Shown piece after piece: positions 3,359 through 25,504 of a stretch of 64,000 nt of DNA (position 1 is its first letter; every line of letters begins with the position of its first letter). This stretch comes from Spirochaetota bacterium (GTDB taxonomy: Bacteria; Spirochaetota; Spirochaetia; SZUA-6). The notes under the pieces are model-generated. The model was not told where the DNA came from and searched no databases. It saw nothing but the letters and a program-made list of their open reading frames with translations. Where the stretch lies: positions 62,001-126,000 of the forward strand of contig JAADHF010000131.1 in NCBI GenBank assembly GCA_013151965.1. The letters run 5' to 3'. Position numbers and translations under genes: made by a program.

Positions 3359-3388
3359 TTGCATAATAATGTTTTTAACCGATACAAT
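3359..3388 (+). promoter_or_regulatory. Putative promoter of the potassium channel gene
   Basis: TTGCAT (3359-3364), an 18-bp spacer and TACAAT (3383-3388). Transcription would start near 3395. That is downstream of an in-frame ATG at 3369 and upstream of the ATG at 3417, and so favours the later start. Confidence 0.45.
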
Positions 3389-3416
3389 AAGTGATAAGCA
3401 AGTTATAAGGGCCGGT

Positions 3417-4619
3417 ATGCAGTCGAAAAGAAAAATAAAAAAAGAAAGACGAATCAATTTCTTTTACAAGGTTAAAGAATTATATCTCGATCTTAAAAAG
3501 GAAAAACTTCCGAATCTTCTGATTGTTGTATTTATTATGGTACTGATAGGAGGTGCGCTGGTTTTTCTTGCCGAGGTCAAAAAAAATCATTCGATGTTTT
3601 CTGATTTTTTTGATGCCTTCTGGTGGGCAGTTGTAACGATTACAACGGTGGGATATGGTGATAAATATCCAATAACAGCAACCGGCAGAATACTGGCTCT
3701 TTTTCTTATGCTTATGGGTGTTGTAACTACTTCGATACTTTCAGGAACAATAGCGAGTATTTTCGTGGACAGAAAAATCAGGGAGGGTAAAGGTTTGCAA
3801 GATGTATCCATGCGAAATCATCTGGTATTATGCGGCTGGAATAAGAATGCGGAGCAGATACTCGATGGAATCGGAAAAATATCCGGCAGAAGCAAGCAGG
3901 AAATTGTACTGATAAATGAAATGGATCCTGAAGAATTTCAGTCTCTGACTTCGAAATTTCAGGATATCGATTTAAGGTTTGTTCGCGGTGATTATACACA
4001 CGAAGTTATTCTGAAAAAGAGTTCGATTGTAAATGCAAAAGCTGCTATTCTCCTCTCCGATGAATCCGGCGAAAACAGCCTGGATAATGCAGACGAAAGG
4101 ACGATTCTGGCATCGCTTGCCATCAAGTCTATGAATCCCGATATTATTTTAAGTGCGGAAATAGTAAATCCGGAAAATGAACAGCACCTTAAAAGGGCAA
4201 ATGTCGATGACATTATTATCTACGGTGAATTTAACGGTTTTCTTCTTGCAAGTTCGACAATGTCGAATGGTATTCCTCTGCTTGTAAAAGAACTCCTCTC
4301 CTTTGAAAGCAGGAATGTACTTAAGAATATTCCGATCCCCGCTCAGTTTATCGGCAGAAGTTTTATCGAGCTTGCGGACCATTTCCTGAAAAACGGCGAG
4401 GGTATTCTGATCGGTGTATTGTCGGAGGAAAAGAAGATGACTCTGGATGATATCCTGTCCGATGATTCTTCCGCCATAGATGCTTTTATTAAACGAAAGT
4501 TTGCCGAAGCGGAAATAGATCTGTATGAAAGTGCAGAAAAGGAAGAACTGCAGATAAAACTGAATCCGGGTAAGGATTATACTATCAGAGACAACGACTC
4601 GGCTTTTATATTGGGTTGA
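3417..4619 (+). CDS. Two-TM potassium channel with a cytoplasmic RCK (TrkA-N) domain
   Basis: Inner-membrane K+ channel subunit. It has a basic cytoplasmic start, TM1, a pore loop with the selectivity filter TVGYGD (about residues 77-82) and TM2. An RCK domain follows, starting at about residue 130 (NHLVLCGWN, a degenerate GxGxxG-like nucleotide fold). A further C-terminal domain is present. The architecture matches MthK or Kch-like tetrameric channels gated by ligand binding to RCK. I chose the ATG at 3417 over 3369 because an AAGGG site precedes it and the likely promoter lies between the two. A cNMP-binding gene follows 13 bp downstream, probably co-transcribed. Confidence 0.9.
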   Translation: MQSKRKIKKERRINFFYKVKELYLDLKKEKLPNLLIVVFIMVLIGGALVFLAEVKKNHSMFSDFFDAFWWAVVTITTVGYGDKYPITATGRILALFLMLMGVVTTSILSGTIASIFVDRKIREGKGLQDVSMRNHLVLCGWNKNAEQILDGIGKISGRSKQEIVLINEMDPEEFQSLTSKFQDIDLRFVRGDYTHEVILKKSSIVNAKAAILLSDESGENSLDNADERTILASLAIKSMNPDIILSAEIVNPENEQHLKRANVDDIIIYGEFNGFLLASSTMSNGIPLLVKELLSFESRNVLKNIPIPAQFIGRSFIELADHFLKNGEGILIGVLSEEKKMTLDDILSDDSSAIDAFIKRKFAEAEIDLYESAEKEELQIKLNPGKDYTIRDNDSAFILG

Positions 4620-4632
4620 TCAGGAGCAGATT

Positions 4633-5145
4633 ATGGGAAAGAAGAAGCAAAGCGATCTGTTAAAAAAGGTTGGTATTCTCTCCGATTTAACAGAAGCGGA
4701 AAGAAATCTTATTTTCAAAATCGCAAGAAAGGTCGAGGTATCATCCGGTGATATAATAATGAGAGAAGGAGAGATAGGAGATTCCATGTTTCTGTTTCTC
4801 GAGGGAGAGGTCGAAGTAAGCAAGAATTTAACATTAAAGGTAGGTAAAAGAGGTTTCAGTAAAGCTGAAAAATCTATGGTTAAACTTAACGCTGATTACG
4901 TATCATTTTTCGGGGATATGGCAATGTTCGAAAACGATACGAGAAGTGCCACGATAACGGCATCCGCAGACTGTCTTCTCTACGAGATAAAGAGGGATGA
5001 TTTCGAAAAATTATGCAGTGAACATCCGGAAATAGGGTATAAGGTAATTCGGAAGATTGCCACCGTACTATGCAAGAGGGTACGTAAAGGCAATCAGGAT
5101 GTCCTTAAATTAACAACGGCATTAAGTATTGCTCTGTCGAAATAA
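4633..5145 (+). CDS. Cyclic-nucleotide-binding domain protein
   Basis: Stand-alone CAP_ED (cNMP-binding) protein of 170 residues without a DNA-binding tail. The beta-roll is recognisable from REGEIGDSMF (about 40-50) and the phosphate-binding cassette FGDMAMF...TRSATI. The cassette carries Asp where most family members have Glu (FGE), while the phosphate-binding Arg is present. An extra segment rich in Lys sits between beta-strands before the cassette. It follows the RCK channel gene by 13 bp with its own GGAG site. It may be a soluble regulator of that channel, which is inference from position only. The ligand (cAMP, cGMP or none) is unknown. Confidence 0.8.
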   Translation: MGKKKQSDLLKKVGILSDLTEAERNLIFKIARKVEVSSGDIIMREGEIGDSMFLFLEGEVEVSKNLTLKVGKRGFSKAEKSMVKLNADYVSFFGDMAMFENDTRSATITASADCLLYEIKRDDFEKLCSEHPEIGYKVIRKIATVLCKRVRKGNQDVLKLTTALSIALSK

Positions 5146-16903: not shown

Positions 16904-16959
16904 AGAAACCGGTAATACGGAACAGAAAATATACATAGCAATAAATGGAGAGGGGAATG

Positions 16960-17406
16960 ATGAAACATTCGAAATTAATGGAAGAAAGAATACGGCGGAC
17001 AAGGGTTCTCTTTAAGGAGCTCGGATATAAAATATTCAATGCAGAAGCAGGTGAAGATGTATATACGGCGGGTTTCGAAAAGGAAGACGGACTGCAGGGC
17101 GGATTCTTTATAGACAGAGAGAGTAAATTCCTTGAAGTGACATATACATTTTCATTTCCGCCGTCGCTGTCCGATTTTTTAAAGGAAAGACTGGAGGATA
17201 TGCTTAAGGTATGTTATGAATTCGGCTGTTATACGAATATTCAGAAGGGGGAAAAAGAGTTTAATTTCTCCGTATTTTCGAAGATATATTTTGCAGGTCT
17301 TAACTATTACTCATTACGGGATTCACTGCGTGATTTCAGCGAGTGTATTGCAATGCTGACCGATCTTCTTGCAATCAGCAAGAATGATGATAAAGAGGAG
17401 GGATAG
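16960..17406 (+). CDS. Hypothetical small alpha/beta protein
   Basis: About 149-residue soluble protein I do not recognise with confidence. The layout (helix, beta hairpin pairs GGFFIDRESKFLEVTYTF, long helix, closing helix) resembles YbjN or type III secretion-chaperone-like folds, but no motif proves it. Two consecutive ATGs (16957, 16960) follow a GGAGAGGGG site; the second has better spacing. It ends 3 bp before the ComFB gene, so the two are probably co-translated and may act together. Confidence 0.55.
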   Translation: MKHSKLMEERIRRTRVLFKELGYKIFNAEAGEDVYTAGFEKEDGLQGGFFIDRESKFLEVTYTFSFPPSLSDFLKERLEDMLKVCYEFGCYTNIQKGEKEFNFSVFSKIYFAGLNYYSLRDSLRDFSECIAMLTDLLAISKNDDKEEG

Positions 17407-17409
17407 ATT

Positions 17410-18105
17410 ATGAACATACATAATCAATTGGAAGACGAAGTCCTTCGGAAGGTTAACGAAATATTCGACGATGAGGAAGCAAAGCAGAGTATGCAGTTCT
17501 GCACCTGCCATCAATGCAGGCTCGATGTGGCATGTTATGTGTTAAATAGAATATCTCCCATATATACCGTTTCCGGACGCGGCCTTGCCCACCTTGAGTC
17601 CGATTACCAGGACAAGCTGCAGCGTGAGGCTGACATAGTATCGCTGATCAAAGATGGAATAGAACACGTATCGGGAGCCAAGCGGCCGCACTTTCCCCAT
17701 AATGACGAAGGGGAGAAAGAGCTGCCGGAGGGGCCTTTCTTTAACTTTCCGCAGATTGTGGGAAGGATCTTTAACAGCATCAACTTTGAGCCTGTTTTCG
17801 GTATTTCCGTATCGTTGTTTTTAAATGGAAACATAGTAAAAATGGTTAACCCGAACTGGCAGAATCCGTATCAGATAGTGGCAAATGCAACCGGTGTCTA
17901 TTCGTTCTGGCCATACCCCGAACCCGCCGATGCAAAGGGATTGGAGAAAGAGTTCGAATTGGAACTTGCCGTGGATGACCCGGCTTATACACCTTTAAGG
18001 CATTATATTAAGGTAACCGCCGAGTCCGCCGGGGGATTTTTACAGTACAGCAAGGGCACGAGAATATATAACGTAGAAGATCTATACCTTATTCACGAAA
18101 AATAA
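17410..18105 (+). CDS. ComFB-domain protein with a C-terminal extension
   Basis: 231 residues. Residues about 1-100 are a ComFB domain: EDEVLRKVNEIF followed by the Cys cluster C31, C33, C36 and C42 in FCTCHQCRLDVACYVLN, then LPPxY-like PIYTVSGRG and a helical end. ComFB proteins of other bacteria have recently been described as c-di-GMP receptors. Residues about 105-231 form an extra beta-rich domain (FEPVFGISVSLFLNG, IVANATGVYSFWPYP) that I do not recognise. It could be an output or ligand module. It follows the small unknown gene by 3 bp and ends in a short hairpin. Confidence 0.75.
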   Translation: MNIHNQLEDEVLRKVNEIFDDEEAKQSMQFCTCHQCRLDVACYVLNRISPIYTVSGRGLAHLESDYQDKLQREADIVSLIKDGIEHVSGAKRPHFPHNDEGEKELPEGPFFNFPQIVGRIFNSINFEPVFGISVSLFLNGNIVKMVNPNWQNPYQIVANATGVYSFWPYPEPADAKGLEKEFELELAVDDPAYTPLRHYIKVTAESAGGFLQYSKGTRIYNVEDLYLIHEK

Positions 18106-18153: not shown

Positions 18154-18441
18154 TTAATAAAATTCCGAAAATATTTTTGTCCTGTATAAATAACCGGGAA
18201 AGGAATCTTCTACAAGATTCAGAGCTTTGTGAAGTACCGATTCTCCGTGCTGTTTGGAGTTAGAGACCAATGCCCCGGCCAGTACTGCGGTTCGTATGGA
18301 GTCCTGTTTGTCCACTTCGGCAACGGAAAGTTTAAATTTCCGGATAAGGCGGTCCTTTATTGATTTTATTACTTTGCGTTTGTCTTTCAGTGAGCGGGCT
18401 TCCGGAATGTCGATGATAAGCTCAATAATGGAAACAACCAT
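18154..18441 (-). CDS. DUF503 family protein (YlxP-like)
   Basis: 95-residue small alpha/beta protein with the family signature EARSLKDKRKVIKSIKDRLIRKFKLSVAEVD. YlxP-type proteins often sit in the nusA-infB-rbfA region and are thought to help ribosome biogenesis, but here the neighbours are a membrane sensor gene and unknowns, so context gives no support. Complete length for the family. Start at the ATG about 13 bp after the end of the upstream gene. Confidence 0.8.
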   Translation of the reverse strand: MVVSIIELIIDIPEARSLKDKRKVIKSIKDRLIRKFKLSVAEVDKQDSIRTAVLAGALVSNSKQHGESVLHKALNLVEDSFPGYLYRTKIFSEFY

Positions 18442-18454
18442 AATAAGAAATAAC

Positions 18455-19579
18455 TTAACCGGGCATGATGTTTTCTATGTCCTGCATATCAATATTTAAA
18501 ACACTATCCTCTTCCTGCACGGCTGTTCTGTCCTTTAAGGGGAGGAAATGTTCATTGTACTGTTTTGCAACTCTGAAAACATCGTCCTGAGCGTATTTTT
18601 CGGGTATCTTAACTTCAAGGTTATAGTTCCTGTCTCTGAAACCATGCTCCATCACGTGAAGCGGGTCTGTTACCGTGATTGCAAAATGGGGGCTGTAGAA
18701 TACAAGGAATGCAGTTACCGTTAAAAGAACTATAAGGAAGAATATAAGGTTCTGAATGGAATTCTGAATGGAAATTACCCTTGTATCAAAGAACAGCTCC
18801 AGATTTTTTTCTTTAAAGTAGCTGTAATCGCCGGGGCCGAAATGTTCCCCGTAGTATCCGTTCTTATACCTGCTGTAAAGCGCTTTTCCGCCTTTTTTTA
18901 CAATAAGAAGATTGTTGTCCAGCTTATCGAGGTACCGGATGGTACTGTTAAACTTGCTGCTGTTTGTTTCCGTCCCCGCAAGTGTTTCCGCTATGGCAAG
19001 CTGCTGCCTGTAAACAGAGGTATCGAGCCCGGGCAGGTCGGTACTTCCCGTGACAAATGACACACCGAATAGAGAAAAAACTATAACTGTAATACTGATC
19101 GTCGTTATGGTAGCAATATGGCGCTGTGCCATAATGGATTCCACGTACCGTATTTTCCCGAATATTTTTATTATTCTTAAGAACCTTAAAACCCTTGCTA
19201 TGCGGATTGCTTTGATAACCTTTAATACATTAAAAATACCGCCTATGCCCATAACTGTCGAACCGGTAAGGAAGAGTGTCAGCATCATGGGGCCGGAGTT
19301 AAATATTAAAAGCGGTACGGATGCGAAAAAATCTATCCAGCCTCTGCCTCTGGTAAGGTAATAATATGTTTTTTTATTGGCAATGGCATAGAAGAGTCTT
19401 GTAAGAAACTCGATTGTAAAAAACAGGTCGAAACAGAAACTGGAAATTGCAAGCTTTTTCCTGATATCCATAGTCCAGCCGGCAACTACGGCAAAGTCTT
19501 CCAGGAACATCTGCACAAGTACAAGCAGGATAGCCGCGATAACCAGTGACTCGAAAAAAACAGTTATTTTTCTGCTCAT
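18455..19579 (-). CDS. Voltage-sensor domain protein with HAMP-like C-terminus and no visible pore filter
   Basis: 374-residue inner-membrane protein. S1 is at about 8-30. S2 is at 47-69 with the conserved E57 and R61, and S3 at 82-107 with D83. A textbook S4 follows: K120, K123, R126, R129, R132, R135 and K138, each exactly three residues apart. A further helix (157-177) leads to an extracytoplasmic segment of about 95 residues, where a channel would carry a selectivity filter; no GYG or sodium-channel-like filter is seen. A last helix (278-297) opens into a HAMP-like region (303-350) and a short acidic tail without a kinase, cyclase or methyl-accepting domain. It may be a voltage-responsive signal transducer; function unknown. 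Confidence 0.7.
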   Translation of the reverse strand: MSRKITVFFESLVIAAILLVLVQMFLEDFAVVAGWTMDIRKKLAISSFCFDLFFTIEFLTRLFYAIANKKTYYYLTRGRGWIDFFASVPLLIFNSGPMMLTLFLTGSTVMGIGGIFNVLKVIKAIRIARVLRFLRIIKIFGKIRYVESIMAQRHIATITTISITVIVFSLFGVSFVTGSTDLPGLDTSVYRQQLAIAETLAGTETNSSKFNSTIRYLDKLDNNLLIVKKGGKALYSRYKNGYYGEHFGPGDYSYFKEKNLELFFDTRVISIQNSIQNLIFFLIVLLTVTAFLVFYSPHFAITVTDPLHVMEHGFRDRNYNLEVKIPEKYAQDDVFRVAKQYNEHFLPLKDRTAVQEEDSVLNIDMQDIENIMPG

Positions 19580-20647: not shown

Positions 20648-23600
20648 TTGAAAAAGATTATTTTAATTCTGATCGTATTATTTACTCCGAACCTCCCTGT
20701 TTTTACGGATGCTGTTGTCCAGCCGGAGAAGGAAGCTCCTAAAGTACTTTTTAAAACCGATATAACCGGAGCCGATGTTGATTTTTACATGAGTGGTTCA
20801 TGGACCTCCAGCCTTTTTATGGGTTCGGGCGTTCTGTTTCAATCCGGTTATCTTCCCAGAATGCTTGATTATTTTCCGGGAAGCGATACCGGTTTTATAT
20901 TCGAAAATATACCCGATTTAACTTTTTCCGTATATCTGATGAAAAAGTATTTTCTCGAACTCAGTGTTTTAAGTGATTTTGAAAAAAACTCTTTTCTTAT
21001 GGGGTATAAAGACGAAGATAATAACTTTTTAAATTATCTCTATATCGGAAACAGGGATATACGGAGCGACCCGTATCCTTTTATAGAAATACCGGATGCC
21101 GGTAATTCTTCACTGGGAATAGAGGCCGGACTGCATTCCGGTAATACTGCAGAACATCATCTTATGCTGAGATACGATTCCAATGGAACGGGGATAAAGT
21201 ATTTTTTAGGGATGAACGAAGTGCAGGAGGAAACTATCGATGTAAAGGATTATATCCGCGGTAAATATTTTTTTATACCCGATACCGATGTCGAGGATTT
21301 TACATTGTACCTATCCGATCCCGGAGGCTCATATACCGGTTCGGACGGTTTCCGTTATCGTAAAGCCGGGCCCGATGATTATATTTTAAATAATCATGCA
21401 GGAACATTATCTTTAAAAAAGGATTTTAAAGGAAAGGCTGCAGTGTACTATACTAAGAACGGATATCCGGTGGGGGACGCCGCTATCGGCAGGGGCGGAC
21501 TTCCCGGAGTAAACGGAAATGAACCGGATGCCGGTTATCCGCCTGTCGATTTTAACTGGAACCTTTCCGGTTACCCTGGCGGGAATATGGCATCCCGTAA
21601 AGTAACCATAAACTCTGAAAATAGTCTTTTGCTCTGGGATAACGGGAATTTTACACCATTTCTGGACTGCAGTAACTATAAAGTGACAGAGGGACTGCCG
21701 GAAAATTCGGAAAATGCAAGGGTGCGGCTTGTTAAGAGGGACAACAGGTATGAGAAGGCGGAGGTCTCCGCATCGATCAGGTTCAGCCTCAATGCGCCGG
21801 ATAGTACGATTACAGCACACAGAACGGATAAAAATACTGCTGCAGGCAGGGATTTTTACGCCTTCTTCCCTTTCCCTGATCCCGGTTATAATATTTATAC
21901 CCCGAAATCGATTCCTGACTCGGATAAACCCGAGTATCAAATTCTTGTTATGGTTCTGCAGCCTGTTACTGAGTATATACTCGAGGATAACATTATTCCG
22001 GGTTCAGTGCATGTCCTTAAAAACGGTATGGAGGAAACACGGTTTAAGGTCGATTATGACAGCGGAAAGATAAATTTTACAACAGAGATATTCCCGGACG
22101 ATTTTATGGAGATCAGGTACAGTAAGGCGGGTATTTCCGAGAAGGGAGGCGACCTGATATTTGACTGGGGGAATACCATTAAACTCTCAGAAAGTATATT
22201 GCTCCGGTTCGCTACGGGGTTCCGCTGGAATATTTTGTCCGGCACATACACAGAAAGTGAGTTCGCAAAAACCGGCAGCATGCTTGTATCGGCGGGGCTT
22301 TCGGAAAAGAAAAAAAATTATGATTTTAATCTGTCTTTGGGAGCAGGGTATTCTGTTCCCGATACTACCGGGATATTTCGCATAGAGGGGATGGAGGGTA
22401 CCGGCACGGATGTGGAAATCGACGAAAATAATATATACCCTTCTTCCGTTCCTTCGGATATTTCCGGTTTAAGCCGGACAAACCGGGGCAAAATTCTATA
22501 TAAAGATTACAGGAGTTACGGTTCCTTCGGTTCCGTAACTCTGCATTACTATGAAGATCCCATCCCGGCTGATCAGGAATATGCATATACGTCCGGTTCC
22601 AAACCGGGGCCGTATATCGTGGGAGGAAGTTCTGCGGGCAAAAGCGGGAAAAGTATGGCCATCGATTTTGATATGGATACTTTAAAGGAGTGGGTCGGTG
22701 CGCAAATACCCATGGGAGGAGGTAATCCGCCGGACCTCTCTTCCGCCCGGTCGGTATCTCTCTCCTTCAAGGTGTTTAAGTTAAGCGGGAATGTCCGAAT
22801 GTACCTCGAAATAGGGGAGACCGGTGAAGACCTGGACGGCGACGGAATTCTCGACCGTGAACAGATGGAAAGCTCAAAGGGTTTTGAGTTTAACGATATC
22901 AGTAATAACGCTGTTCTCTATGTAGGCGGAGGGCCCAGGATGGAGGGTAACGGGAAGATTGATTCGGAAGATTTAAACAACAATGGTTTTCTCGATCCGG
23001 ATAATCCCGCCCATATCGTGTCCGTTACATCCGGCGGATCCGCGGATATTCTTCTGCTCGATTCTCCTGCGGATCAGTGGATAAAATTCACCCACAATTT
23101 TTCGGAAGCGGAAAGGGAAAAGCTGAAGAACGCAGGATCGGTACGTATTGTTGTCGTAAAACAGTCGGGAGATACGGCGGATGGTGTTATTCTGATAGAT
23201 AAAATAACATTTAACGGCTCTCCCTTCTGGCAGAAGGCAGACAGCCCGGGAGAAGTAACCGCCCAGGAGATAGATGAGAATTATTCGGCATACCTTCCTT
23301 CGGCTGATCTGGAAGATTCTTTTACCGAAGTTAAGAGTATCTTTCATCCTCATGGCGAACGGCAGAAGATTCTGCAGATTACATGGAACTCCGTACCTGC
23401 CGGCGGAAGCTGGACTGTGGGAAAATATTTAAACAACGTTATTAATAAAGTTATGTACAGCAGGCTGGTCTTTTATCTAAGGGCTGCTTCCATGGATAAT
23501 TCTCAGGATGCTGTTTTAAGCATCGGGGTTGTCGATACGGGGGGAAGGGGCATAACCATAGGTTTTAAAGGGAATATTCTGGCTCCGGGAATAGATTCTC

Positions 23601-25504
23601 CATGGAAAAAAGTGGAAGTCGATCTCGGGGATGGTACCGTACTTATAAACGGACAAAAGACGGAATCGACTGTAACGGTAGATCGGACTTACAATTCTCT
23701 GACGGAGCTTAAGATAAGCTGCACAAATTCTTCTTCCGGAGCCCTGTACCTGGATGAATTTTCATTCAGGGAATCAAAAGGATCATTCGGGGCTGCCTTG
23801 AAAGCAGACATGAATTATAGAATTCCCGGAAAAATATTATCCGCAGGCGGTGTGGATATTCTGTCGAATATAATCTTAAAGGAGCGTCTGTACTCGGCAA
23901 CTCCGGGATTTTCGCCTGTTTACGGCATTCCGGAAGATGCTTTTAAGTTATATTCATTTTCGGAAGTTTCTTTTTCCGTTAACGCCCTTTCGGTTTATTT
24001 TAGTATTCTTTTCGATGGAAGCGGCAGTTCCGACTGGCGTGAGCTGAGCTATTCCATTGCCGGAAGTCACAAATTAACACTTCCGGTACAATTTCTATAT
24101 ACAACGGTAACGGACAGTTTTTCTAAGAAAACGGGAGAGCAGGGAATATCGATCTACAAGGAAGACTCTGTTATAACCTCTCTGCCCGGATTGGCAGCTT
24201 TAAAAGCGGGAATCAACGATAATGTTTATGCAGGTCTGCTCGATCAGAAATGGTACGGCGGCATGAATTTTAATCTTCTAAATCCATTTACACTGTCCGC
24301 AGATATTGAAATAGAAAAATCCTTTGCCGGCTATTCGGCTGAGGATAATGACTATTTCTCCGCATGGACAAAGAGTTTTACCTATATTGTCCCGTATATT
24401 TCAGATCAGGAAACGAACAGAAATGTTTCTCTGAATAATCGAATGGGTCTTGCAACCGAACCTGCCGGAATAAACATAACGGCGGACATAAGCTCAGAAT
24501 GCAGCAACCTGCTGACAATGGACCGGACTCAGGAGAATACGGTACATTTGATGCTGGAAATTCCGCTTAAGATATTCCCGGACAGCAGTACACCCGTATC
24601 GATTATTCCGGGGTACAGCCGTGAACTTAAGCTTACAAGCGGTAAACAGGCGGCAGGTAATTTAAGCGCTGATCTGGAAAAAATAAAGAGTGATATTATG
24701 TTAAACAGTTATGTCATAACGGGAATACCGTTTTTAGAGATTACAGGCCCGGATCTTAAGAATCTGTTTTCTTCGTTAACCGCTTCCTATGAAAAGGCAA
24801 GTTATATGCCCGGTTTTTCAGTAAATTTTTCACGTAATTACAGTTCAAGGATTATCGATCTGATTCTGCCTTCCATGCTGAATGTCTATGGGGGAAGAAA
24901 GCTTGTAAGGAACTTCGACACCATGCAGGATATGTACCTGTTAAGCTTAAATCTTAAGTCCACAGCTATTAATCTTTTCGGGAAATTAGGTGCATATCCC
25001 TTTTTTAGCTTTTACAATTCGGACGAATTCGGCAGTTCGCTTTTCCTGGACATGGATTTAAATGATAATTATAGTATAAAAACCTACAGCTTAGCGATCG
25101 GGCATTACATGAGTCTCTATGGAAAGGATAAGAATCTTCTGACACTCAAAAACAGGTTTAAAGTAGAAGATCAGGCGGAAAAACGTTATGCGGATTCCGC
25201 TGATATTTCATTTACCTGGAACGTAAAACCGGAAGAAGGAATAGAGCTGCCCTATGTGCCGAATAAATTCTTAAAGGAGAGTTTTATCAGAAACATCGAG
25301 GAACTGACATTCAATACGGATGGATCCCACCCGGTTACCCTCATAGCCTCGCATGAATCTTCATTTGTTATGCCGGATTACGGTCATGTCAAATTTAATA
25401 CGGGAATAGGATTCGATTATGAGTATTCGGATAGTAGTGCTATTGCACGCAGGGCTTTCAGGATTTTTATAAAGGGAGGAATAGAAGTAAAGATAAGCTT
25501 TTAA
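20648..25504 (+). CDS. Giant 1618-residue outer-membrane/surface protein with EF-hand-like loops
   Basis: Very large exported protein: signal peptide (about 1-20, ending near FTDA), then beta-rich sequence throughout. Two calcium-loop-like motifs occur near residues 727-738 (DLDGDGILD) and 771-785 (EDLNNNGFLD). A jelly-roll-like segment lies at about 930-1040 (SRLVFYLRAAS...LYLDEFSF). The last third alternates aromatic and polar residues and ends FIKGGIEVKISF, matching the terminal-Phe signal of BAM-assembled barrels. The mix of a giant barrel and ExLNxNGxLD loops recalls SprA-type proteins of Bacteroidota, but this is only an impression. The start is a TTG, with TATAGA 8 nt before it. Confidence 0.6.
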   Translation: MKKIILILIVLFTPNLPVFTDAVVQPEKEAPKVLFKTDITGADVDFYMSGSWTSSLFMGSGVLFQSGYLPRMLDYFPGSDTGFIFENIPDLTFSVYLMKKYFLELSVLSDFEKNSFLMGYKDEDNNFLNYLYIGNRDIRSDPYPFIEIPDAGNSSLGIEAGLHSGNTAEHHLMLRYDSNGTGIKYFLGMNEVQEETIDVKDYIRGKYFFIPDTDVEDFTLYLSDPGGSYTGSDGFRYRKAGPDDYILNNHAGTLSLKKDFKGKAAVYYTKNGYPVGDAAIGRGGLPGVNGNEPDAGYPPVDFNWNLSGYPGGNMASRKVTINSENSLLLWDNGNFTPFLDCSNYKVTEGLPENSENARVRLVKRDNRYEKAEVSASIRFSLNAPDSTITAHRTDKNTAAGRDFYAFFPFPDPGYNIYTPKSIPDSDKPEYQILVMVLQPVTEYILEDNIIPGSVHVLKNGMEETRFKVDYDSGKINFTTEIFPDDFMEIRYSKAGISEKGGDLIFDWGNTIKLSESILLRFATGFRWNILSGTYTESEFAKTGSMLVSAGLSEKKKNYDFNLSLGAGYSVPDTTGIFRIEGMEGTGTDVEIDENNIYPSSVPSDISGLSRTNRGKILYKDYRSYGSFGSVTLHYYEDPIPADQEYAYTSGSKPGPYIVGGSSAGKSGKSMAIDFDMDTLKEWVGAQIPMGGGNPPDLSSARSVSLSFKVFKLSGNVRMYLEIGETGEDLDGDGILDREQMESSKGFEFNDISNNAVLYVGGGPRMEGNGKIDSEDLNNNGFLDPDNPAHIVSVTSGGSADILLLDSPADQWIKFTHNFSEAEREKLKNAGSVRIVVVKQSGDTADGVILIDKITFNGSPFWQKADSPGEVTAQEIDENYSAYLPSADLEDSFTEVKSIFHPHGERQKILQITWNSVPAGGSWTVGKYLNNVINKVMYSRLVFYLRAASMDNSQDAVLSIGVVDTGGRGITIGFKGNILAPGIDSPWKKVEVDLGDGTVLINGQKTESTVTVDRTYNSLTELKISCTNSSSGALYLDEFSFRESKGSFGAALKADMNYRIPGKILSAGGVDILSNIILKERLYSATPGFSPVYGIPEDAFKLYSFSEVSFSVNALSVYFSILFDGSGSSDWRELSYSIAGSHKLTLPVQFLYTTVTDSFSKKTGEQGISIYKEDSVITSLPGLAALKAGINDNVYAGLLDQKWYGGMNFNLLNPFTLSADIEIEKSFAGYSAEDNDYFSAWTKSFTYIVPYISDQETNRNVSLNNRMGLATEPAGINITADISSECSNLLTMDRTQENTVHLMLEIPLKIFPDSSTPVSIIPGYSRELKLTSGKQAAGNLSADLEKIKSDIMLNSYVITGIPFLEITGPDLKNLFSSLTASYEKASYMPGFSVNFSRNYSSRIIDLILPSMLNVYGGRKLVRNFDTMQDMYLLSLNLKSTAINLFGKLGAYPFFSFYNSDEFGSSLFLDMDLNDNYSIKTYSLAIGHYMSLYGKDKNLLTLKNRFKVEDQAEKRYADSADISFTWNVKPEEGIELPYVPNKFLKESFIRNIEELTFNTDGSHPVTLIASHESSFVMPDYGHVKFNTGIGFDYEYSDSSAIARRAFRIFIKGGIEVKISF

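Follow-up and report, generated by a model that had tools for sequence, protein, structure and literature searches.

A spirochaete protein family combining a voltage-sensor domain with a HAMP-like receptor end

Known voltage sensors and the spirochaete locus

To our knowledge, pore-less voltage sensors coupled to signaling are known from eukaryotes only. The closest described systems are the voltage-sensing phosphatases (Ci-VSP/TPTE), in which an S1-S4 domain without a pore is coupled to signaling and not to ion flow. TMEM266 and Hv1 also have a voltage-sensor domain with no pore domain; neither carries a receptor module, and Hv1 conducts protons. In bacterial Kv and BacNav channels (Ion_trans), S1-S5 are accompanied by a pore loop, a filter, and S6. 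HAMP receptors, such as WalK-type kinases and chemoreceptors, follow the order TM helix, periplasmic sensor domain, TM helix, HAMP.

The protein described here, P0001, resembles each of these in part. It shares a pore-less S1-S4 domain with the phosphatases, but it is bacterial, its coupling would run through a further pair of TM helices with a periplasmic domain and through HAMP, and no PTEN-like phosphatase domain was matched in it by Pfam. Unlike TMEM266 and Hv1, it has a receptor module. It is homologous to Kv and BacNav channels over S1-S5, whereas their pore loop, filter, and S6 are replaced by an ectodomain, TM6, and HAMP. It has the module order of HAMP receptors, with a voltage sensor at the N-terminus and without a kinase or MCP output domain, the output apparently being provided in trans. 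The parts are known; neither the joining of a voltage sensor to HAMP nor the full combination of voltage sensor, receptor module, HAMP, and trans partner was found in the literature searched, which left out most subscription journals.

The window, meaning the whole stretch of DNA that was analyzed, is 64,000 nucleotides long. The open reading frame at 18455-19579 is genuine and encodes P0001 (374 aa). The features of the locus are as follows.

18455-19579, minus strand: P0001, voltage-sensor/HAMP protein; Pfam Ion_trans at residues 8-179 only; family match at E ≤ 0.001 in 159 of 395 Spirochaetia genomes, 150 counted strong
19481-19573, minus strand: S1, residues 3-33, with conserved E10, E27, and D28 (AlphaFold model, conservation)
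19379-19471, minus strand: S2, residues 37-67, with F54, E57, and R61 (79/79 conserved)
19271-19342, minus strand: S3, residues 80-103, with D83 (79/79 conserved)
19154-19228, minus strand: S4, residues 118-142, seven basic residues (all seven in 78/79)
19043-19135, minus strand: TM5, residues 149-179 (AlphaFold model)
18782-19042, minus strand: periplasmic domain, residues 180-266, in the place of the pore loop, PAS/PDC-like (model; without filter motif; absent in L175-L178)
18692-18781, minus strand: TM6, residues 267-296, continuous with HAMP helix AS1 (AlphaFold model)
18503-18691, minus strand: HAMP-like module, residues 297-359, with P306, D(D)V(F), and N342 (hhalign; kinase HAMP match; model)
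18458-18502, minus strand: acidic C-terminal tail, residues 360-374, motif LxLxx(D)hxDhh (regex, PSSM)
18154-18441, minus strand: DUF503 (YlxP-like) gene, same direction, directly after P0001
19588-20517, minus strand: P0002, 309 aa, candidate partner, soluble and all-alpha (model, linkage)

The P0002 gene, which had been pointed out as the neighbor 8 bp upstream of P0001, is also genuine. The DUF503 gene is a conserved neighbor of the sensor gene, even where HAMP and P0002 have been lost. Convergent to this operon are a gene for a ComFB-domain protein (17410-18105, plus strand) and the frame at 16945-17406, which has no Pfam family; both are kept beside it in most Spirochaetia loci, including those without HAMP and P0002. 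Divergent from P0002, the gene at 20648-25504 (plus strand) encodes 1618 aa; its product belongs to no Pfam family and probably lies in the outer membrane. The position of this gene beside P0002 is kept across most of the class. Elsewhere in the window, a K+ channel with two TM helices, the sequence TITTVGYGD, and an RCK-like region in the cytosol (3369-4619, plus strand) is followed by a small cyclic-nucleotide-binding-like protein (4633-5145, plus strand). PADLOC gave no defense link.

Voltage sensor, pore position, and HAMP-like end

The original prediction described a complete S1-S4 voltage sensor and named E57 and R61 in S2, D83 in S3, and K120 to K138 in S4. These residues were named correctly, and the claim is borne out by the residues themselves, their conservation, and the structural model. 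S2 reads F54-TI-E57-FLT-R61, which is the FxxExxxR pattern of a charge-transfer centre, and S4 carries K120, K123, R126, R129, R132, R135, and K138, one basic residue at every third position. The domain thus satisfies the sequence and structure criteria of the superfamily (four TM helices, basic spacing in S4, an aromatic residue and an acid in S2, and an Asp in S3), whereas the functional one, movement of S4 with voltage, is inferred.

Conservation was assessed in 79 complete Spirochaetia homologues that keep both HAMP and P0002, leaving out the Borrelia-like ones. None of the 79 sequences departs from F54, E57, R61, D83, R126, R129, R132, or R135, and 78 of them have the complete set of seven S4 charges. 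The mean column entropy of the 11 sensor positions was 0.009 bits, against 1.61 for the other TM1-TM5 columns, and none of 20,000 random draws reached so low a value. Judged from these alignment columns, the conservation of the sensor residues is not due to chance.

Several lines of evidence agree with the earlier claim that no K+- or Na+-type filter is present. Ion_trans matches P0001 at E 1.5e-12 over profile positions 3-154 of 241 (Pfam), which is S1-S5 only; as a positive control, a Kv channel of the same genome matches 2-239 and has TLTTIGYGD. A regex search for K+ and Na+ filter motifs at the pore position found none in 110 of 111 homologues, and the lone match, SIGF in L160, was judged spurious. 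The AlphaFold model of P0001, built from 35 sequences (pLDDT 81, pTM 0.71, with the S3-S4 loop at residues 107-117 below 50), has no re-entrant filter loop in residues 178-277, a feature that would have refuted the prediction. P0001 therefore does not satisfy the criterion for a channel, namely a re-entrant pore loop, a selectivity filter, and S6.

What the model places there instead is an alpha-alpha-beta-beta-alpha-beta-beta domain (residues 185-265), followed by a single long helix that combines TM6 and AS1 (267-315) and by AS2 (333-359). The extracytoplasmic segment had been put at about 95 residues; it exists, and its length is nearer 87. The ectodomain is poorly conserved in the family, and in four loci elsewhere in the phylum (L175-L178) TM5 is joined to TM6 without any ectodomain, two of the four keeping the full S4. 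The periplasmic domain is therefore dispensable. Foldseek of the P0001 model against the PDB gave no significant match, the top one by E-value being the sensor kinase WalK, weakly (E 0.044, probability 0.99) and ahead of channels; phmmer against PDB sequences gave no match.

The HAMP-like nature of the C-terminal end, also proposed originally, has gained support from three sources. It is important to note that Pfam HAMP (PF00672) matched none of 35 family members above its curated cut-off. We rely on hhalign, on the match of the family profile to a kinase, and on the model. In hhalign, family residues 270-359 were compared with HAMP segments from the same genome's own receptors and scored 24-30 (E about 1e-5 to 1e-4), against at most 15.4 for 60 column shuffles, 12.1 for a reversed profile, and less than 10 for other P0001 segments. 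The family HMM also matches residues 484-608 of L170, a hybrid histidine kinase/guanylate cyclase of another spirochaete (i-E 4.6e-6). That match covers an ectodomain/TM/HAMP stretch and spans the TM-HAMP junction, with Pfam HAMP lying at 565-616. The helix pattern TM-AS1-connector-AS2 with a conserved Pro satisfies the HAMP criterion, with P306 in 79/79 and N342 in 78/79 of the homologue set used above. At the DExG start of AS2, P0001 reads DDVF, with F replacing the glycine, and the relative L179 reads DEIG. Relatedness of the P0001 C-terminal region to HAMP is thus supported.

Partner gene, family distribution, and alternative readings

P0001 is a member of an unannotated, phylum-wide family across Spirochaetota. 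The sensor gene also occurs in other classes of the phylum, and the same gene pair, sought as a check on the original prediction, was found across classes. When 84,980 species of bacteria and archaea were scanned with a pattern, all matches came from spirochaetes, a result limited by the pattern. An apparent 900-aa fusion in one genome (G021) turned out to result from runs of N and is not real.

The guess that P0002 is the partner of P0001 survives testing by linkage across loci. P0002 was found in 125 of 395 Spirochaetia genomes, and all 125 have the sensor gene; in nearly all loci read, other classes included, P0002 lies directly upstream of it. P0002 is modeled as a soluble, all-helical protein (pLDDT 91) with no Pfam family and no PDB fold match below E 1. 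An NCBIfam match to transaldolase (E 7e-4) is far below the cut-off and is contradicted by the all-helical model.

Loss patterns suggest which end of the sensor P0002 goes with. Twelve complete homologues at four places in the tree lack HAMP, and all 12 lack P0002; P0002 was never found with a copy that lacks HAMP. Several of the 12 also have lost sensor charges, E57 being replaced by D, Q, or W. Conversely, Borrelia-like copies with E57 replaced by I and a shortened S4, as well as Brachyspira-like copies without S4 charges, keep both the HAMP region and P0002. P0002 therefore follows the HAMP end and not the voltage end. The formal test of co-loss of HAMP and P0002 on the tree was not significant because there are only 3-4 independent HAMP losses. 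P0002 has also been lost where sensor and HAMP are intact (L096, L104, L167, and the g199 loci L198, L199, and L205), so it cannot be the only route.

The acidic tail offers a lead as to where P0002 might dock. Within Spirochaetia, the tail motif was found by regex in 62 of 78 homologues with P0002 and in 0 of 10 without it, and the tail PSSM had a median of 18.4 with P0002 against a maximum of 3.6 without. In three Spirochaetia genomes, P0002 and the tail are both gone while sensor and HAMP are intact, with the upstream side cut by the contig end in L096. The tail as an exclusive docking site was rejected: outside Spirochaetia, a Brachyspira-like copy (L173) keeps P0002 without the motif, and L188 and L199 keep the motif without an adjacent P0002. 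Docking on the tail is for this reason only a lead.

We also made observations on the divergent copies themselves, whose assignment to Borrelia and Brachyspira is inferred from size and gene order. At one Borrelia-like locus (L035:5013-7434), the two genes have a cheA-cheW-cheX-cheY cluster nearby, which may be coincidence. The Borrelia genes are presumably BB_0673-0675, and a literature search on these names gave no match. At a Brachyspira-like locus (L173:1738-3521), a divergent P0002 overlaps a 347-aa membrane protein without S4 charges.

The charge-eroded copies provide an argument for a different reading, which we consider unlikely: the four-helix domain could be a channel-derived structural or ligand-sensing bundle that senses no voltage, the stimulus being periplasmic. 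HAMP and P0002 do persist in Borrelia-like copies that lack E57 and part of S4 and in Brachyspira-like copies that lack S4 charges, and the f62 copies are degenerate. This reading does not account for all 11 sensor residues being intact in 78 of the other 79 HAMP- and P0002-bearing Spirochaetia homologues. A periplasmic stimulus is also difficult to reconcile with an ectodomain that is poorly conserved, and missing altogether from L175-L178, two of which have the full S4.

We give still less weight to an Hv1-like voltage-gated proton leak, in which the sensor domain would conduct H+ and the remainder would dimerize or regulate. The selectivity Asp of Hv1 sits mid-S1, whereas the conserved S1 acids here are only E10 and E27/D28, with no conserved acid at residues 11-26 (family columns, without direct alignment to Hv1). 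A precedent exists in that the pore-less voltage-sensor domain of Hv1 conducts protons (PMC13095418), but the seven invariant S4 charges also count against a leak, which moreover leaves the linkage to HAMP and P0002 unexplained.

In family f73, P0002 (when present) comes first, then the sensor gene, and then, at 8 of 11 loci (L196-L201, L205, and L206), a K+ channel with TxGYGD; a cyclic-nucleotide-binding region follows in the two read fully. This arrangement would suit an auxiliary subunit of a real ion channel, comparable to silent Kv subunits, with ion flow elsewhere as the read-out, but we find that highly improbable, as no such channel lies directly beside the sensor gene in the window or in the Spirochaetia loci read, and channel subunits have nothing that corresponds to HAMP or P0002.

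Other outputs, putative mechanism, and biological meaning

A distant relative (E about 1e-14) carries its own enzyme. L179 (L179:2086-3816, minus strand, in genome G461) is a 576-aa protein that fuses a voltage sensor, an ectodomain, a HAMP-like stretch, and HD-GYP. Ion_trans covers S1-S5 at E 1.4e-17, S4 has ten basic residues at three-residue spacing, the HAMP-like stretch contains NNDEIG (Pfam 0.072), and the HD-GYP part matches HD_5 at E 7e-25 with HDLGK and HHE..DGSGYP. By these domain matches, L179 shows the module order of P0001, ending in a predicted c-di-GMP phosphodiesterase-type enzyme. It resembles Ci-VSP/TPTE in having an enzyme, but HD-GYP is another family. L179 comes from a single metagenome-assembled genome, and no more enzyme fusions were found in the class to which that genome belongs.

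An Ion_trans scan of 369 genomes of the phylum gave mostly complete channels among the matches listed. A second pore-less voltage-sensor group (L180:3119-4408 and L181:3235-4701) has a long cytoplasmic tail and, at the C-terminus, a conserved stretch reading "ISxRSIVDY(I/L)K", with no P0002 alongside.

With a voltage sensor that leads into HAMP and not into a pore, and with the same uncharacterized gene kept beside it across the spirochaetes, P0001 is probably a receptor by which the cell senses its own membrane voltage. Our preferred reading, which we hold with more confidence than doubt, is that this membrane-potential receptor signals via HAMP to P0002, the voltage response and P0002 binding both being inferred. 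The original statement that the protein signals by HAMP and not by ion flow fits the evidence and has a natural counterpart, fused to an output enzyme, in L179; there are no data on a voltage response, on the absence of a proton leak, or on the output.

The putative mechanism would begin in S1-S4, where the S4 charges are inferred to move through the F54/E57/R61/D83 centre as voltage changes. TM5, the small PAS/PDC-like periplasmic domain, and TM6, which come after S4, form an ordinary bacterial receptor module and not a pore, as the model, the motif search, and the profile show. S4 movement would be passed through TM5 and TM6 to the HAMP module, with both transmission and dimerization inferred. 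With no output domain of its own, P0001 would hand the signal to the soluble, co-encoded P0002, which perhaps docks on HAMP or the acidic tail; linkage and loss patterns support this hand-over, whereas binding is inferred.

What lies downstream may involve motility. Older work reportedly addressed membrane potential in the chemotaxis of Spirochaeta aurantia. Within Spirochaetia, fliG is present in 147 of 150 strong carriers of the sensor gene and in 145 of 245 non-carriers, a comparison not corrected for phylogeny; the three strong carriers without fliG are incomplete assemblies, and the 145 show that the sensor gene is missing from many flagellated genomes. The association is compatible with a motility role and is no proof of one. 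The motors at the two ends of a spirochaete cell lie >10 μm apart, and their coordination is an open problem, the diffusion of CheY-P between the ends being estimated at about 5 s (Nakamura 2020, PMC7225975). Motility coordination is an attractive output because motor-to-motor signaling over >10 μm is unexplained and CheY-P diffusion is thought too slow. Speculatively, the receptor could inform the motility machinery at the two ends of the cell of rapid changes in potential. The wider proposal, that bacteria possess a class of voltage sensors built into HAMP-type receptors that act on P0002 or HD-GYP, and that spirochaetes possibly coordinate their flagellar motors electrically, is put forward only tentatively, as a possibility that may well prove wrong. 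A voltage sensor in a standard bacterial receptor relay would let bacteria read membrane potential directly, and the sensor could make the problem of motor coordination in spirochaetes testable.
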